Origin: Entrophospora sp. SA101
Taxonomy: Eukaryota > Glomeromycota > Glomeromycetes > Entrophosporales > Entrophosporaceae
Assembly (NCBI GenBank): GCA_958430865.1
Contig: CAUDNR010000739.1
Coordinates: forward strand, 1-13,880
Direction: 5' to 3'
DNA length: 13,880 nt
A program made the translations under genes and the position numbers. Below the pieces are notes generated by a model, which had not been told where the DNA came from, searched no databases, and saw nothing but the letters and a program-made list of their open reading frames with translations. Positions 5,384-13,880 of this stretch are shown here, piece by piece. Position 1 is the stretch's first letter; the number at the start of each line of letters is the position of its first letter.

Positions 5384-8300
5384 ATGTTTTATAATCATCA
5401 AAGAGAAAGAGGAAATTCATCACTTCAATTTCATCTTTTTCTGCTGATATTATTCATATTTTTATTGTTACCATGTAAAATAGAATCTCGACTTACAGAT
5501 GGTAGTGATAATAATTTAAACAATCCAACTTCTGGTGCCCCAAAACAAAATTTTCAAATGAAATATCCACCCGAACCTTTTTTTGGGTAATTATACCATT
5601 TTAGTACTGTTATTAAATCATTTATTAAATAAATAATTAATGGTTTAATTCTTTTTTTTTTTTAATCAACAATATTATTAGCCCAGATGGAGATTCAATG
5701 ATAAAAACTCCTTCTGATATTGTTGACACTGACCCAAAACAACCAATACCCAAGTGTACTGATCCATTACTAGCCGATATTTATCCAATGCCAAGATGTA
5801 TCTCTAATATTATAACTAATTATCAATTAGATCAATTTGATATGGCAAAGGCAATGGGTTATCGATCTAAAAGACAAACTAGCCATATGGTAAAAAAAAT
5901 TCTTTTAACAACTGTTTATTTGTATTTGTTTTCTCAAATTGATTTTTTGAATTAAATAATCTTTTGTTTGATTTCTTTTCTAGATCACTTTTTTTGCTCA
6001 ATTTGTTAGTTATGATATTTGCAACTCAAGAAACCATGCTCCATCAAGTCATCAATTGTATATACCATCTGATGATGCAACTTATAATCCAATAACGTCA
6101 TTACCAGGTCAATTAAGTAATTCGAAGTCACTTGCTTTTAATCGATCAGATTTTCTTCCTACACAAACACCCAAGCGTACTGGTTACAATATGGCAACTC
6201 CTTTTCTGGACTTGAGTCCTATTTATGGTGTCACTGCTGAAGATGCAAAAGATCTTCGTGAGGGTAATAGAGGAAAATTAAAGACCAGTGGAAATGCATA
6301 TGATCCTTACCCATTTAAGGATCCAACAACAGGAATATATGTTACTGGACCTACTTCCAAACGATCAAATAATATTTTTACAATGGCTATTCTGACTATT
6401 TGGTTACGTGAACATAATAGATTATGTGATGAGTTTTATGAAAAAAATGGTGATGCATGGACTGATGATCAATATTTTGAAGAGGCTGTAGGTTTTATAT
6501 TTGTTAATGATAGTAATATAGTAATAATTATAATAATAATTAATTTTTTAATTTTTTAATTAATCAGAGGAAATGGAATATTGCATTTTATCAAAGAGTT
6601 GTTACTGAAGAATATCTTGGTGTTATACTGGGTAAACCATTACCACCATATCAAAAATATGATCCAGATCTAACTCCAGGAATTGATGTTTTTTTTTCAA
6701 CAATAACATTCAGATATGGTCATAGTGAGCTGAGTGATTTTTATCAAATTCAAGATGAATTTGGTAATTCAATTGTGCAATTATCATTACAAAATATTAT
6801 GATACCAAATTTACTAGAAAAATTTGGTGTAGCAAATTTGTTGGGATCAATGTCTTTGCAACGTCAAGAAGATGTTGATATATATTATTCTGATGCAACA
6901 AGAAATGTTCAATCACCTGAACCAAACACTTATGATCTTGTGGCATTTGATGCACTAAGAGCTAGAGATAGAGGTATGAATATGTGTGTGTTTTATGTAT
7001 TTTATATATATATATGAAATAATGTTAACATGCATATATTATAGGAATTGCATTATATAATGATGTTCGTCAGGCATATGGTTTAAAAAAAAAAGATACA
7101 TGGGCAGATATAACTTCGGTTAAAGAAATACAGGATAATCTACAAAAATTGTATCCTAATGGAACTAATCAATTAGAAGCTTTGGTTGGAGCAATGGCTG
7201 AAGATCATTTGAATGGAACAAATCTTGGTGAATTATTGAATGCTAGTATGATTACTCAGGTAACATTATTTATTATTATTATTACTTATTACTTATTATT
7301 GTTTTATCTAATATTTTCATTGTTTGCTTTACCATCTATTTATTTATTTTTCATTGCCTGTTTATCACTTATTTATTTATTTAATAGTTTGCAAATATTA
7401 GAGATTCAGATAGATTTTGGTGGGAAAACAGAGAGAATAACTTGTTTACTGATGAAGATAGAACCACCAAACTTAGAAATAAAACAACATTTAGAGATAT
7501 TATTTTACGTAATTTAGATGAAATTTTTCATCCAGCAATCCCACAAAATATTTGGTCAGTTCAACCAAAGCAGAAATTGTTCGAGTCATCAAAATACCTT
7601 AATCGTATTGCTTTATGGCCAGCAGCATATGTTATTGGTTATGAAATAATTAGAAATCATATTAATTTCCAAGTTCAAATACTAACTACAGATGGTAATG
7701 CATGGTTTGGAATGGTGAGTTGGTTATTTAGTTGATAATGTCAAGATTATGATGATGACAGTGATAAAATTTACAATATATTTATTTATTTGAATAATAA
7801 AATAGGGATTTGATCCTGATAATAATGGAATGACTGGAGCAGATTTTGTGATTGGGATTGTAAGTTATTTTTTAAAAAATAATTGTCTTATGTATGATCT
7901 TGTAAAAATTAAAAAATCATAATATTAAAATTTTTGTTTTTTTAGATTTCTAATGGAAATTTATCATCTTTATCAAATTATCGATCAGCTCCAACTGGTT
8001 ACTACCCTCCTACACCTGATGGTGATGACTCAGATTTACAAATAATTAATTACACACCTCCTATTAAAGATAATTTTGCAATTATTGAATTCTCAAGACC
8101 TTTAATACCTAATGGAAGAAAAGGGATTAGAAGTGGATCTGTGAAATGTAATGATAATTTTGCAAAAATATTATAATTAGTTTCTCTTTTTATTATTTTT
8201 TCTCATAAGAATAATAATTATTGTTTTTAGTTATTTTGGCTTATAATCCTGCAAGTTCAGTATTTTCATATCATCAAAATAATCGTCAATTAACACTATA

Positions 8301-11300
8301 TGATTTTTACAGTAATCAATTTTCATCATCTGTATCTAATGGTCAAAGATTAGCAAAATTAGCTCATGGAATTGGAATGTTCTTAACTTGGTGGTAGGAT
8401 ATTGATATTAAATATACATCAAATATCTTTGCATTTTGAAAAAAATTATTAATTATCATTTCCATTCCATTATAGCATTCTATTTCCTGTTTCTATTTTT
8501 ATTGTAAGATATTACAAACATACCAATAGCTACATCAAAATACATCGATTTGCACAATTGCTTGGTGGTATTAGTATTGGTAGCTTTGGTGCAGCAGCTA
8601 TGGCAACAATTAGTATGAAAACAAGTCATTCATGGCTAGGATTGACAATATATTTTTTGTTATTTATTGAACTTGGATTAGGTCTAATATCAATGTGGGG
8701 TCAAGTGGCAATAGTGTCAGTTAATCAGGGATATCCTAGATTTCTTAAAAGAATTCACAGACTTTTTGGAATTTCCTTATTATTATGTGCATGGGTAAAT
8801 ATATATTTGGGAATTGATACATATAGTTTATCTTATGGGTTTGAATCATTTCGTTACAAGGTTGCATATCTTATATGGATTAGTGTAATGGTAGCAGCAT
8901 ATATATTTAGTGAATATTGGTGGAATTGGAAAGGGACTTGGAAATGGAAATATACCTTGTTGAATTCTAAAAAAGGAAATGAAGAAGGAAATAAAAAAAA
9001 CTCCATTATTTCATCATATATTACTGAAGAAGATTTAGCTAAAATGCCAGAATTTACATGGAGTGAAATTAATGAGCGTGTTCAACGTGGAGCATATTTA
9101 ATAGTTTGTGATGGATTTATTGTTAATATGAGAAAATGGATTAAGGTACATCCTGGTGGAGCAAAAATTCTTGAACGTGTCATTGGAACTGACATAACAA
9201 ATGATTTTTTTGGTTATAAAGGTAAAGGGATTATTGAGCAGATTAGTAACATTCCAGAAATAAAGTCTGTTCCAACTGGTATATCATCATCAGTTTTAGG
9301 GAAGTATAAAGATATTTTACATGAGAGAACCAAAAAATACACAACTGAAAAAAATTCAGTTGCACAAGTTGTTGATGATATGAATGTTAAATATTTTTTA
9401 AAGGCACCTTTGGCTATACATCCACATAGTTTGTTTGCAATTAAGAAAATAGCAACAATGATTGTGGCAAAATTAAAAGAAACCCCAGATGTTGTTCTTG
9501 GATCACAGATGTCACCTGCACCAATATTTGGACCAACAAATGTAGCTGATGGAAGATTAAGTGATTCAGAAATTGCTAAACAAGATACAGCATTTAGAGT
9601 AAAGTTCCGTAGATACAAATTAACAAGCAAAGTACCTATCAATGGCAGTAAAACGTACCCAGTGATGAAATTCACATTCACAATAGTACATGAAAATGAA
9701 GCTTATAATCATAAATTGAAATTCTTGCCTGGACATTATATTGAAGTGCAATCAAGAATTAAAGGACAAGTAGTAATTAGAAGTTATACACCAATAGAAG
9801 GCAGTATTGCCCAAAGTTTTAGTATTTTTGTTAAAGTGTATCCAGATGGATTAATGTCACGACATTTGGTAAAGTTTAAAATAATTAATAATTATATAAT
9901 GCTATATTTATTATTATTTAAATCCATTAGTCATTTATTGATTTTAATTAATTAATAACCAATCATGCTTTAGAATGAACAATTAAAAGGATATGAGATT
10001 CAAGTGAGAGGACCATTTGATGTTGGAGATAGAGAAGTTTTGCAAACACCAACATTATCCCAGACTGTTGATGCAGCATCACAATATAGAAAATCAAGTA
10101 TATATAGCTTATCCACCCCATCATTTATATCTTCATCAACAAGTTCCTTACTTAATCCTAATACTCAGGATGGTCACTGGAAAGAATTATACATGATTTG
10201 TGGTGGTACTGGAATTGCACCAATGTTACAAGTAAGATTTTTATTGTAAAATAATAATATATTTTTATTCATTGTTTTTGTTATTTATTTATCATTGTCA
10301 TTATTATTGTAATGAAATAGCTGATGATATATCATTTGGAATTGTGTATGAGGCGCAGCCGGGCATCAACAACACGTAATAAACGAGTGTCAATGCATTT
10401 GTTATATGGTAATTATAGAGTAGAGGATATAATTAATGGTGTAGAATTAGAAGAGTATCGGTTAAGTAGTAGGGGTATGCTATCCATAACATATTCATTA
10501 AATAAACCACCCCCTGAATGGACAGGGAAAATTGGTGAAATTAATCAAGAAATGATTTCAGATTGGTTAGGTGAACTGGTCGTAAATGATAGTAAAAACA
10601 AAATTACTGCTGATGATACTGATATACCAGATTCCCTTAGTCCACAACCATTTATAAAACATTCATCATATGGTGGTGGTTCATTAAATAATATGTCAAA
10701 CATGATACAATTTAATAGTTATAACAATACAACAAACACATCATATTTGCCAATTAATACAAGTCAATCACAACTTAATAATAGTGATGATGATATTAAT
10801 ACAAATACAACAAATTTGCCAACTAGTACAAATCCACCACAATTTTATAATCCTTTATCATATGATAATAATAATGATAATCGACCACCAATAATACCAC
10901 ATCATACAAAACCTCCACCACCAAGTATAGTGTTTAGTAATAATCAGAACACTTATAGAACATCAATTAATCCAGAAAGTGCTTTAAGTTATAATTATGC
11001 TCAACATTATAGAACGCCACCACCATTATCGTCACCACCATTATTATCACCACCATTATTATCACCACCATCATTATCACCACCATCATTATCACCACCA
11101 CTACTACCATCATCACCACCACAACGATATAGAGATTCATATGTAAATAAAAACTATATTAAACTTAATAGCAAAAAGAGTGATGATGAAATTAGTGAAG
11201 CACATAGTAATGTTACTGCTGGTAATAATAAGAGAAAATCTAAACTTAATCCTAACAGTAAAATATTTGTTTGTGGACAATCTGGTATGATAAATGTAGT

Positions 11301-11358
11301 TGAGCAAACATTACAATATCTAGGTTATACTGAGGAAGATTTTATATTAATAGCATAA
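5384..11358 (+). CDS. Peroxidase-DOMON-cytochrome b561-cytochrome b5-reductase fusion protein (DUOX-like)
   Basis: Twelve exons: 5384-5586, 5682-5889, 5984-6487, 6568-6973, 7045-7259, 7388-7714, 7806-7859, 7946-8147, 8231-8393, 8476-9868, 9974-10231, 10321-11358. All introns are GT-AG, all junctions keep frame, and the total is 4971 nt (1656 residues). Module order: secretion signal (residues 1-35, hydrophobic 15-31), animal-type haem peroxidase (about 45-570), DOMON (about 577-745), five-helix cytochrome b561 (750-910), cytochrome b5 (about 950-1095, with an insertion), FAD domain (about 1130-1245) and NAD(P)H domain (about 1295-1656). Inferred role: a plasma-membrane enzyme moving electrons from cytosolic NAD(P)H through FAD and several haems to the cell exterior, coupled in one chain to a peroxidase fold. 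Each module resembles a known family; the combined function (peroxide production, metal reduction or substrate oxidation) is inference. Start chosen because of the signal peptide and the in-frame stop immediately upstream. Confidence 0.92.
5682..7700 (+). other. Domain: animal-type haem peroxidase (exons 2-6), degenerate distal pocket
   Basis: Family hallmarks run in order: QFVSYD (residues 143-148), which aligns with the distal-haem motif Q-F-x-D-H-D; a calcium-loop signature T-x-F-x-D-x-S (209-215, TPFLDLSPIYG); R264 at the expected catalytic-arginine position; LREHNRL (278-284); the proximal-haem motif FRYGH with H357; and RDSDRFWWEN (517-526). The distal His is Tyr147 and the ester-forming Asp is Ser146, while the calcium-binding Asp148 and proximal His357 remain; the Glu/Met haem-link positions after R264 are also changed (N-I). 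Exon 5 holds N-glycosylation sequons at N479, N497 and N506, fitting an external location. Full peroxidase activity is therefore doubtful; haem binding through His357 is still possible. Confidence 0.9.
7600..8345 (+). other. Domain: DOMON haem domain (exons 6-9)
   Basis: Residues about 577-745 give a beta-rich DOMON pattern: WFGMGFDP (618-625), GMTGADFVIG (629-638), FAIIEFSRPL, and VKFILAYNP followed by YHQN (720-723). In DOMON domains that bind haem b (cellobiose dehydrogenase, plant AIR12, CYBDOM proteins) the axial ligands are a Met and a His; here M630 (alternatively M621) and H721 are the candidates. The domain directly precedes a cytochrome b561 core, the usual CYBDOM order, which places it outside the membrane. 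It spans the 54-nt exon 7, so gene prediction could easily miss part of it. Confidence 0.8.
8345..8925 (+). other. Domain: cytochrome b561, five membrane helices, four haem histidines
   Basis: Predicted helices are at residues about 750-774, 784-808, 812-835, 855-877 and 885-910. Conserved histidines fall at helix starts: H752 (AHGIG), H784 (KIHRF), H812 (SHSWLG) and H855 (RIHRLFG). H752/H812 would hold the outer haem and H784/H855 the inner one. Loops rich in Lys/Arg (RYYKHTNSYIK; FLKRIHR; the segment after helix 5) alternate with poorly charged ones, giving the N-terminus outside and the C-terminus inside. This fits a secreted peroxidase/DOMON half and a cytosolic reductase half. Confidence 0.88.
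9053..9480 (+). other. Domain: cytochrome b5 split by a ~70-residue insertion
   Basis: Residues from 954 (FTWSEINERV) lead into HPGG at 986-989 with the first axial H986, then GTDITNDFFGY (998-1008), the usual helix before the second haem ligand. The expected His is not there. Instead about 70 residues follow (GIIEQ... to LAIHP), after which HSLFAIKKIATMIVAKL matches the post-ligand end of cytochrome b5 (HS..A....... pattern), making H1078 (or H1076) the likely second ligand. The domain lies on the cytosolic side between the b561 core and the flavin domain, where it would carry electrons from FAD to the inner b561 haem. Confidence 0.75.
10175..11228 (+). repeat. Inverted repeat, left arm (gene 3' part)
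   Basis: This segment pairs with 12827-13880 in reverse orientation without indels (coordinates of paired bases sum to 24055). I compared the arms block by block and found two differences: c10177 (silent) and c11020 (Pro in the gene, Thr in the copy). The arm contains the end of exon 11, all of intron 11 and most of exon 12. The right breakpoint lies after 11228; the left limit is set by the window end. Confidence 0.95.
11032..11106 (+). repeat. Coding minisatellite, five 15-bp units (SPPLL/SPPSL)
   Basis: Five in-frame units of tcaccaccattatta or close variants encode Ser-Pro-Pro-Leu/Ser-Leu at residues 1549-1573, inside the disordered insertion of the NAD domain. Flanking Pro-rich sequence extends the tract. 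The same five units are present in the inverted copy (12949-13023). Confidence 0.9.
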
Positions 11359-11419: not shown

Positions 11420-11970
11420 TACTCCCTCCCTAGACAAAAGTTTCAGTCACCACAAATCTAATAATCCTGCAAAAACGTACATAATAAAAGCATAAATAAT
11501 TTATATCAATTGTAGGTTTAAATATTAAAGAATTTGACCAAAATGGTTTTAAAAAACTTGCATAATAACCACACCTGAAATTCTGGCATGTATAGCTTGA
11601 GTCCTGACACAACGCGTCATCATATATTTTTCCAATTTTTTTTTGTAGTTTACTTAAAAAATTAAGATTTTTTCTCTAAAAAAAGAATTTGAACGTGGCA
11701 AATAATTGAACTTTACAGAGACAATAATACTATTCATATATTTCTAAAACAAATGGCTTTGCAAAACTTCCAGGAGAGAGGTAGCGTTGAAGGGTTAGCA
11801 AGAAGTGGACGTCGGATACTGATCATAAGAATGAATTGAAAAAAAGAGAACCGTAAATCTACCAGCAAATAAAAAGAACCAATTTAATGAAATTACAAGT
11901 TTACAGGTTTCAACCAAAACTAACAGAAATTTACATGATTTAAATATTTATTCTCGTGTTCTGTATCTAA
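11420..11970 (+). mobile_element. Decayed Tc1/mariner element, 5' half
   Basis: Just 62 bases after the stop codon, a TA is followed by ctccctccctagacaaaag (11422-11440), a terminal sequence of Tc1/mariner style whose core recurs at about 1408. About 250 bases further on lies a transposase relic (11691-11955). A degenerate opposite end may be gacgaaacttttcttttatc at 12441-12460, whose complement partly matches the left end. The element inserted in the 3' flank of the gene and has since lost coding function. Confidence 0.55.
11691..11955 (+). pseudogene. Tc1/mariner transposase N-terminal relic (frameshifted)
   Basis: Reading across at least two frameshifts gives fragments typical of the paired-type DNA-binding part of Tc1-like transposases: ERGK then IELYRDNNTI, LQNFQERGSVEGLARSGRR (the FQ..GSV...RSGR linker motif, 11764-11816), and later FNEITSLQVSTKTNRNLHDLNIYSRV, matching the VS..T..R.LHELG.YSRV end of the second helix-turn-helix. 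No catalytic DDE region is recognisable downstream. A dead remnant, on the same strand as the oxidoreductase gene. Confidence 0.65.
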
Positions 11971-12798: not shown

Positions 12799-13880
12799 TT
12801 AACATAACAAAATATTAAAGATTTCGTTATTACCAGCAGTAACATTACTATGTGCTTCACTAATTTCATCATCACTCTTTTTGCTATTAAGTTTAATATA
12901 GTTTTTATTTACATATGAATCTCTATATCGTTGTGGTGGTGATGATGGTAGTAGTGGTGGTGATAATGATGGTGGTGATAATGATGGTGGTGATAATAAT
13001 GGTGGTGATAATAATGGTGGTGACGATAATGGTGTTGGCGTTCTATAATGTTGAGCATAATTATAACTTAAAGCACTTTCTGGATTAATTGATGTTCTAT
13101 AAGTGTTCTGATTATTACTAAACACTATACTTGGTGGTGGAGGTTTTGTATGATGTGGTATTATTGGTGGTCGATTATCATTATTATTATCATATGATAA
13201 AGGATTATAAAATTGTGGTGGATTTGTACTAGTTGGCAAATTTGTTGTATTTGTATTAATATCATCATCACTATTATTAAGTTGTGATTGACTTGTATTA
13301 ATTGGCAAATATGATGTGTTTGTTGTATTGTTATAACTATTAAATTGTATCATGTTTGACATATTATTTAATGAACCACCACCATATGATGAATGTTTTA
13401 TAAATGGTTGTGGACTAAGGGAATCTGGTATATCAGTATCATCAGCAGTAATTTTGTTTTTACTATCATTTACGACCAGTTCACCTAACCAATCTGAAAT
13501 CATTTCTTGATTAATTTCACCAATTTTCCCTGTCCATTCAGGGGGTGGTTTATTTAATGAATATGTTATGGATAGCATACCCCTACTACTTAACCGATAC
13601 TCTTCTAATTCTACACCATTAATTATATCCTCTACTCTATAATTACCATATAACAAATGCATTGACACTCGTTTATTACGTGTTGTTGATGCCCGGCTGC
13701 GCCTCATACACAATTCCAAATGATATATCATCAGCTATTTCATTACAATAATAATGACAATGATAAATAAATAACAAAAACAATGAATAAAAATATATTA
13801 TTATTTTACAATAAAAATCTTACTTGTAACATTGGTGCAATTCCAGTACCACCACAAATCATGTATAATTCTTTCCAATG
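12799..13880 (-). pseudogene. Inverted partial copy of the oxidoreductase gene, 3'-truncated
   Basis: Minus-strand copy entering from beyond the window: end of exon 11 (13880-13824), intron 11 intact (13823-13735), then exon 12 (13734-12799). It encodes the NAD-domain motif CGGTGIAPML, the NKPPPEWTGKIG region and the whole low-complexity insertion, then leaves the parent sequence at 12826 and ends with EIFNILLC and a TAA at 12799-12801. It therefore lacks the final ~38 residues including CGQSGM, which should disable NAD(P)H binding. Because the intron is kept, it arose through DNA, not through a reverse-transcribed mRNA. Whether a full second gene exists beyond 13880 cannot be seen; an assembly artefact is also possible. 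Confidence 0.8.
12827..13880 (-). repeat. Inverted repeat, right arm
   Basis: Reverse complement of 10175-11228 with 2 mismatches in 1054 bp. The spacer between the arms is 1598 bp (11229-12826) and holds the gene's last 130 bases with its stop, the Tc1-like relic and unassigned AT-rich sequence. The arm continues past the window end, so its true length is unknown. Confidence 0.95.

Follow-up and report, generated by a model that had tools for sequence, protein, structure and literature searches.

A peroxidase-type domain with an altered active site fused to a predicted transmembrane electron chain in glomeromycotinan fungi

Here we analyze a gene predicted in 13,880 nucleotides of DNA from Entrophospora sp. 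SA101 (contig CAUDNR010000739.1 of assembly GCA_958430865.1; this whole stretch is termed the window). The gene encodes an N-terminal peroxidase-type domain in one chain with DOMON, cytochrome b561 and cytochrome b5 modules and a reductase module that binds flavin adenine dinucleotide (FAD) and nicotinamide adenine dinucleotide (phosphate) (NAD(P)). Among related glomeromycotinan proteins, the proximal heme ligand of the peroxidase-type domain is retained and the distal catalytic histidine is absent. This lineage-wide change of the active site is the newest and most useful result, in a family for which titles and abstract openings in open PubMed Central yielded no description. The explanation that best accounts for our observations, to which we assign a probability of about 0.62, is an outward-directed electron wire, fed by NAD(P)H, that ends in a peroxidase-type heme and would serve an external acceptor rather than classical peroxidase chemistry.

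Active site of the peroxidase-type domain

Distal and proximal residues were assigned by alignment to solved peroxidases and by the general features of the peroxidase-cyclooxygenase superfamily. Conservation was counted over the window protein and 49 glomeromycotinan proteins, with gaps excluded and partial gene models and near-duplicates included; ten further glomeromycotinan proteins, mostly partial (P0063, P0072, P0075, P0076, P0078-P0081, P0083 and P0085), lie outside these counts. The proximal histidine is retained in all 47 rows that cover its position. Histidine is absent from the distal position in each of the 42 covering rows among the 50 aligned, which have Phe (27), Tyr (7), Ser (3), Met (3), Lys (1) or Ala (1) instead, and Glu does not occur at the distal Glu column (0/44). 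The distal residue of the blastocladiomycete Paraphysoderma is likewise Phe.

Two chytrid proteins, P0038 and P0043, have a distal histidine, as have P0039, P0040, P0041 and six more outgroup proteins (local check). An RxxE pattern is kept as well in P0038, P0043 and P0039. P0042 was not counted at the distal histidine because its gene model skips that stretch. P0044 has the histidine in both of its domains according to the local check. P0045 and P0047 have no histidine at the distal column of the full-length alignment, and the local check places a segment with this histidine C-terminal of their main match. The order of parts in these two proteins is thus that of a circular permutation, with the match to the N-terminal peroxidase part, including the distal histidine segment, placed behind the remainder of the domain.

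The distal histidine is expected to be essential for peroxidase activity. Classical peroxidase chemistry is thus unlikely in proteins that have lost it, and the peroxidase-type domain would likely do a different job from a classical peroxidase. The fold, as modeled for the homologue P0021, and the proximal histidine place the domain in the peroxidase-cyclooxygenase superfamily, but the distal histidine of an active peroxidase is missing. Peroxidase as a function, implied by the first-pass annotation of this DNA, is therefore not borne out for the window protein or for the other covering glomeromycotinan rows.

Modules of the protein and integrity of the gene

The six Pfam domains are found in the order An_peroxidase, DOMON, Cytochrom_B561, Cyt-b5, FAD_binding_6 and NAD_binding_1, all above the curated cut-off (Table 1). 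Together with a full set of ligand residues, this agrees with the first-pass annotation, which had described a secreted-type peroxidase fold fused to a complete transmembrane chain. Among the aligned glomeromycotinan rows, the two DOMON ligand candidates are conserved in 50/50 (Met) and 44/45 (His), and the two cytochrome b5 ligand histidines in 47/47 and 48/48 covering rows. The second of the latter, H1078, lies 92 residues past H986 and outside the Pfam match, which corrects a first reading. Loss of the second b5 ligand in this copy was considered and rejected, as the ligand is displaced by an insert. The 91 residues between the two histidines are encoded at 9152-9424, and the part preceding the second histidine looks conserved in Glomeromycotina; usual cytochromes b5 have far fewer than 91 residues between their heme-ligand histidines. 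HPGG and HS..A ligands and RxYT and GGTG motifs, typical of cytochrome b5 and its reductases, are all present in the b5/b5 reductase module, and the solved structures nearest to the C terminus are NADH-cytochrome b5 reductases. Several homologues have inserts of differing sequence at the position of the low-complexity insert in the NAD-binding domain. NCBIfam gave matches below cut-off only, on three homologues.

Table 1. Coordinates of the predicted gene and its features in the window
Feature	Position	Strand	Residues and details	Basis
Whole gene	5384..11358	+	12 exons, 1656 amino acids	Spliced model, collinear paralogues, homologues
Exons 1-6	5384-5586, 5682-5889, 5984-6487, 6568-6973, 7045-7259, 7388-7714	+		
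Exons 7-12	7806-7859, 7946-8147, 8231-8393, 8476-9868, 9974-10231, 10321-11358	+		
Predicted signal peptide	5420..5476	+	13-31, hydrophobic N-terminal segment	Hydropathy
An_peroxidase domain	5489..7528	+	36-559, exons 1-6	Pfam (E 5e-91), PDB sequence matches, fold of homologue P0021
Distal catalytic His position	6011..6013	+	Tyr147	Alignments
Proximal heme ligand	6721..6723	+	His357, conserved	Covering glomeromycotinan rows
Peroxidase/DOMON joint	7529..7627	+	Inside exon 6	
DOMON	7628..8244	+	593-711, exons 6-9	Pfam (E 4e-11)
DOMON ligand candidates	7830-7832, 8272-8274	+	Met630; His721, just past the Pfam match	Conservation
Cytochrome b561	8365..8917	+	Pfam match 752-875; five predicted membrane helices (753-771, 789-807, 815-833, 857-875, 890-908); His752, 784, 812, 855	Pfam (E 8e-6), hydropathy, ligands, helices in P0021 model
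Cytochrome b5	9056..9427	+	Pfam match 955-1008; ligands His986 and His1078	Pfam (E 1e-7), conservation
FAD-binding domain	9698..10018	+	1169-1240; motif RSYTP 9779-9793	Pfam (E 8e-13)
NAD(P)-binding domain	10193..11358	+	From 1299; Pfam match 1299-1399	Pfam (E 2e-14), conservation
NAD(P)-binding motifs	10202-10213, 11272-11289	+	GGTG; C-terminal CGQSGM	
Low-complexity insert in NAD-binding domain	~10585-11247	+	Asn/Ser/Pro-rich, short repeats	Limits by eye

The N-terminal segment and the five hydrophobic segments between residues 753 and 908 predict a secreted N terminus, with the peroxidase-type and DOMON domains outside and the b5, FAD and NAD modules inside the cell. The usable structure model is that of the Gigaspora homologue P0021 rather than of the window protein (59 rows; mean predicted local distance difference test score, pLDDT, 78.8; predicted template modeling score 0.63). 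It contains the peroxidase fold and five helices and ends inside the FAD domain; its fold matches test mostly residues 20-564 and barely the other modules. An earlier model from 27 rows reached a mean pLDDT of no more than 55.8, which is poor, and a Foldseek result obtained with it was not used.

The gene is predicted to be spliced from 12 exons, with GT-AG borders at 11/11 introns, consistent phases, a coding length of 4971 nt and a stop as the last codon only, in agreement with the earlier one-gene model. The joints between modules lie within exons: exon 6 contains the peroxidase/DOMON joint, exon 9 that of DOMON and b561, exon 10 those of b561, b5 and FAD, and exon 11 the FAD/NAD joint. Because each joint is inside one exon, two genes cannot be split at a joint by shifting a splice site.

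A search of the fungus's own genome (101 Mb, 2123 contigs) with exon 10 gave 20 matches on nine contigs, including the contig of the window (C665). Four of these contigs (C334, C2001, C244 and C513) were compared further by fetched regions, and their paralogues align from residue ~1-4 to 1655-1656 with unchanged module order; the C513 paralogue has additional introns within the exon 10 part. For nine of the 12 exons compared with all four paralogues, all 36 matches are free of stops, one of them partial (exon 10 against C513, covering amino acids 243-464 of 464).

It is highly improbable that two adjacent genes or a chimeric contig were taken as one gene: the contig is short, with a partial inverted copy at its end, and of the 46 mismatches to P0001, the closest database protein, 38 fall within residues 1-268 (exons 1-3), but the joints inside exons and the four paralogues that are collinear with the gene elsewhere in this genome refute both two genes and misassembly as explanations of the architecture, many genera share the module order, and P0085 from Entrophospora sp. 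SA101 matches residues 195-760 with one mismatch and two gaps. A stop between exons 6 and 9, raised in the first-pass annotation as a possible sign of two genes, is absent from the gene model. The remaining eight mismatches to P0001, also from Entrophospora sp. SA101, are at residues 717-1534, mostly adjoining gaps in gene models. The cluster of mismatches to P0001, against the near-perfect match to P0085 from residue 195 on, looks like gene conversion or recombination among near-identical copies.

Elsewhere in the window, 12827-13877 on the minus strand is an inverted copy, at 99.8-99.9% identity, of 10178-11228, that is, from the end of exon 11 to within exon 12. It lacks the last part of the gene, reaches the contig end or stops no more than three bases short of it, and could represent a tail-to-tail copy that is truncated or else a fold-back of the assembly. 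Six short pieces from other parts of the window had no Pfam match above cut-off, and Rfam gave no match at gathering scores. A short reading frame at 11753-11836 is reminiscent of the remnant of a transposase helix-turn-helix; Pfam gave no match there.

Distribution and age of the fusion

A full-length search returned 41 matches, 39 of which have An_peroxidase and DOMON and 35 also FAD_binding_6 or NAD_binding_1. They come from Entrophospora, Acaulospora, Gigaspora, Rhizophagus, Paraglomus, Scutellospora, Cetraspora, Racocetra and Funneliformis and from the chytrid Cladochytrium replicatum. Two further searches added the chytrid Nowakowskiella, a second Cladochytrium protein, Dentiscutata, Diversispora and the blastocladiomycete Paraphysoderma sedebokerense. 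In Paraphysoderma, DOMON is below the Pfam cut-off and b561 is unmatched, and in Cladochytrium b561 is marginally below cut-off; the ligand residues nonetheless align in both. P0039 has peroxidase, DOMON, b5 and FAD matches, aligned b561 histidines and a shorter b5 insert. Family members are often named heme peroxidase in the databases; other entries read hypothetical protein or unnamed protein product, or carry a gene number. Animal-type heme peroxidases are reported from Mucoromycota, with an architecture likened to that of Ppo (PMC10629195).

The searches thus find the architecture in Glomeromycotina, chytrids and a blastocladiomycete, and not the absence from related genomes that the first-pass annotation had named as pointing to misassembly. 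Because it recurs across fungi and exists in four further collinear copies in one genome, the architecture is neither a misassembly nor species-specific. Judged by the sequences compared, it is that of a fungal family in several phyla rather than of Entrophospora.

A maximum-likelihood tree of the peroxidase domain was built with 34 rows chosen from the search matches other than P0044, P0045 and P0047, and without DUOX sequences. It requires a single change at the distal position, on the branch that leads to Paraphysoderma and Glomeromycotina (100/98), and all fused forms group with modest support (91/75). A second tree, of 24 chosen rows of the C-terminal half, has a backbone that matches that of the peroxidase-domain tree. 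Because the separate trees share this backbone, the peroxidase half and the electron-chain half were probably inherited together, and the fusion is probably old. P0086, P0039 and P0084 form long branches in the C-terminal-half tree, P0039 in both trees, and the tool gave a warning on the joining of P0086 and P0039. P0086, from the ciliate Pseudocohnilembus persalinus, consists of two tandem DOMON-b561-b5-reductase-like units, one of which was used in the tree, with b561 below cut-off and no An_peroxidase match. It is possible that P0086 is a relative of the chain prior to fusion.

Proposed electron path and comparison with known systems

The sequences directly show the modules, their order, the conserved ligand residues of the electron chain and, across Glomeromycotina, the missing distal histidine beside a retained proximal one; splicing, secretion, topology, heme occupancy, the direction of electron flow and the age of the fusion are inferences. 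In the proposed wire, electrons would pass from cytosolic NAD(P)H to FAD, b5, the two membrane hemes, the DOMON heme and finally the outer peroxidase-type heme, where an external acceptor would be reduced at the cell surface. A DOMON with Met/His ligands, predicted to lie outside a five-helix b561 with four histidines, is the arrangement of CYBDOM proteins such as HYP1, with which the window protein has in common the outer DOMON, the five-helix b561, the heme-ligand logic and, by prediction, outward electron transfer. HYP1, a DOMON-b561 protein, uses cytosolic ascorbate as donor and reduces external Fe3+ and Cu2+ (PMC10784544). The window protein adds the cytosolic b5/FAD/NAD module and the outer peroxidase fold, and by analogy with HYP1, NAD(P)H would replace ascorbate by way of the fused module.

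As the acceptor we tentatively favor O2, at somewhat less than even odds, which would give superoxide or H2O2, because a proximally held heme with Phe/Tyr replacing the distal histidine would be an open binding site. Ferric or cupric reduction would be the second choice. The first-pass annotation had offered extracellular peroxide production, reduction of iron or quinones, and cross-linking of the cell wall as possible roles, all of which stay hypothetical here.

Several points weigh against the proposed wire. Heme occupancy of every module is predicted from residues. The O2 step receives no support from the HYP1 work, since HYP1 reduces metals and the main text of that study nowhere mentions superoxide (PMC10784544). 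The distal position is not fixed, being Tyr, Phe, Ser, Met, Lys or Ala, which fits lost constraint as well as a new function. Depending on the alignment, either K263 or R264 corresponds to the distal Arg, and in one alignment the R264 column is not in register with the outgroups. Finally, the ratio of nonsynonymous to synonymous substitution rates (dN/dS), which is 0.39-0.57 overall against four paralogues and lower in the b5 and FAD parts than in exon 6, exon 8 and the b561 parts, reaches ~1 in exons 6 and 8 (L009-L011) and 0.6-1.0 in the b561 part of exon 10 (L002-L004) between close paralogues. Part of the chain may therefore be under weak constraint, and in some copies the outer and membrane modules may have evolved under relaxed or diversifying selection.

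Among the alternatives, a CYBDOM-type surface ferric/cupric reductase, supplied from NAD(P)H by a b5/FAD module of its own and using the peroxidase-type domain only as scaffold or docking platform, is unlikely but survives best. It would agree with the metal reduction by HYP1 (PMC10784544), with the chain without peroxidase in P0086, with the lost distal histidine and with the worm DUOX BLI-3, whose inactive peroxidase domain is described as lacking heme-binding residues and has been proposed to act in docking (PMC6411640). The proximal histidine, which a pure scaffold does not need, is nevertheless kept in 47/47 rows. Still less probable is an NAD(P)H-powered surface peroxidase, in which the wire would feed the peroxidase heme directly and external peroxide would be reduced. 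This would be a fair account of P0038, P0043 and P0039, which keep the distal histidine and RxxE, and perhaps of the ancestor, but neither the distal histidine nor the distal Glu is found in the covering Glomeromycotina, the window protein included.

The proposed outward wire invites comparison with DUOX, as a single chain combines an N-terminal peroxidase-type domain, predicted to lie outside behind a signal segment, with a predicted transmembrane heme pair and an FAD/NAD(P)H reductase at the C terminus. The first-pass annotation had seen in it the DUOX idea built independently; the analogy is fair, given that other parts than a NOX core are used, but the protein is not a DUOX. In a Pfam scan of the window protein, Ferric_reduct (PF01794), FAD_binding_8 (PF08022) and EF-hand were not listed at E up to 1, and NAD_binding_6 (PF08030) scored 12.2 against a cut-off of 22.2. 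We therefore rejected DUOX membership; b561, DOMON and b5 take the place of the NOX core and EF-hand. In both families, the active site of the peroxidase domain is degraded, with the proximal histidine missing from DUOX and the distal one from the family described here. The proximal histidine is reported to be absent in DUOX, and the function of the DUOX peroxidase domain is called obscure (PMC4420034); in human DUOX1, the heme-ligand histidine is absent and the peroxidase domain shows no heme (PMC7794343). Because two differently built chains have both lost peroxidase residues, the comparison suggests that peroxidase folds joined to outward electron pumps may tend to take another role. A more far-reaching and rather doubtful reading is that of a second kind of dual oxidase that arose in fungi, with a peroxidase fold wired to cytosolic NAD(P)H by way of b5, b561 and DOMON, in which loss of the distal histidine in the lineage to Blastocladiomycota and arbuscular mycorrhizal fungi, as a mirror image of the proximal loss in DUOX, would have produced an oxygen-reducing or sensing surface heme, retained in several gene copies and employed at the plant-fungus interface.

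Other systems share single parts of the chain. FRE proteins with an extracellular DOMON, known in Naegleria, Albugo and Phytophthora, also place DOMON outside a transmembrane heme reductase, but have a ferric-reductase core and, as described in PMC3591440, no peroxidase domain. Compared with Peroxinectin A and the cyanobacterial and mammalian animal-type heme peroxidases, the distal histidine is lost in Glomeromycotina and one blastocladiomycete and an electron chain is fused. NADH-cytochrome b5 reductases share the FAD and NAD motifs and are the best solved-structure matches of the C terminus, whereas the reductase of the window protein is fused behind a b561 and a b5 domain that has a long insert. 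Fungal Ppo/LDS dioxygenases have the An_peroxidase superfamily in common, but a C-terminal P450 instead of the electron chain (PMC4420034, PMC10629195).

In conclusion, arbuscular mycorrhizal fungi carry copies of a predicted surface redox machine under names such as heme peroxidase. DUOX provides a natural comparison, as in two separately built chains residues needed by a peroxidase have been lost, on opposite sides of the heme. Should the electron chain function in the way its ligands indicate, it would allow the direct export of NAD(P)H reducing power at the cell surface, which, if true, would bear on iron gain, oxygen chemistry and signaling with the host root.

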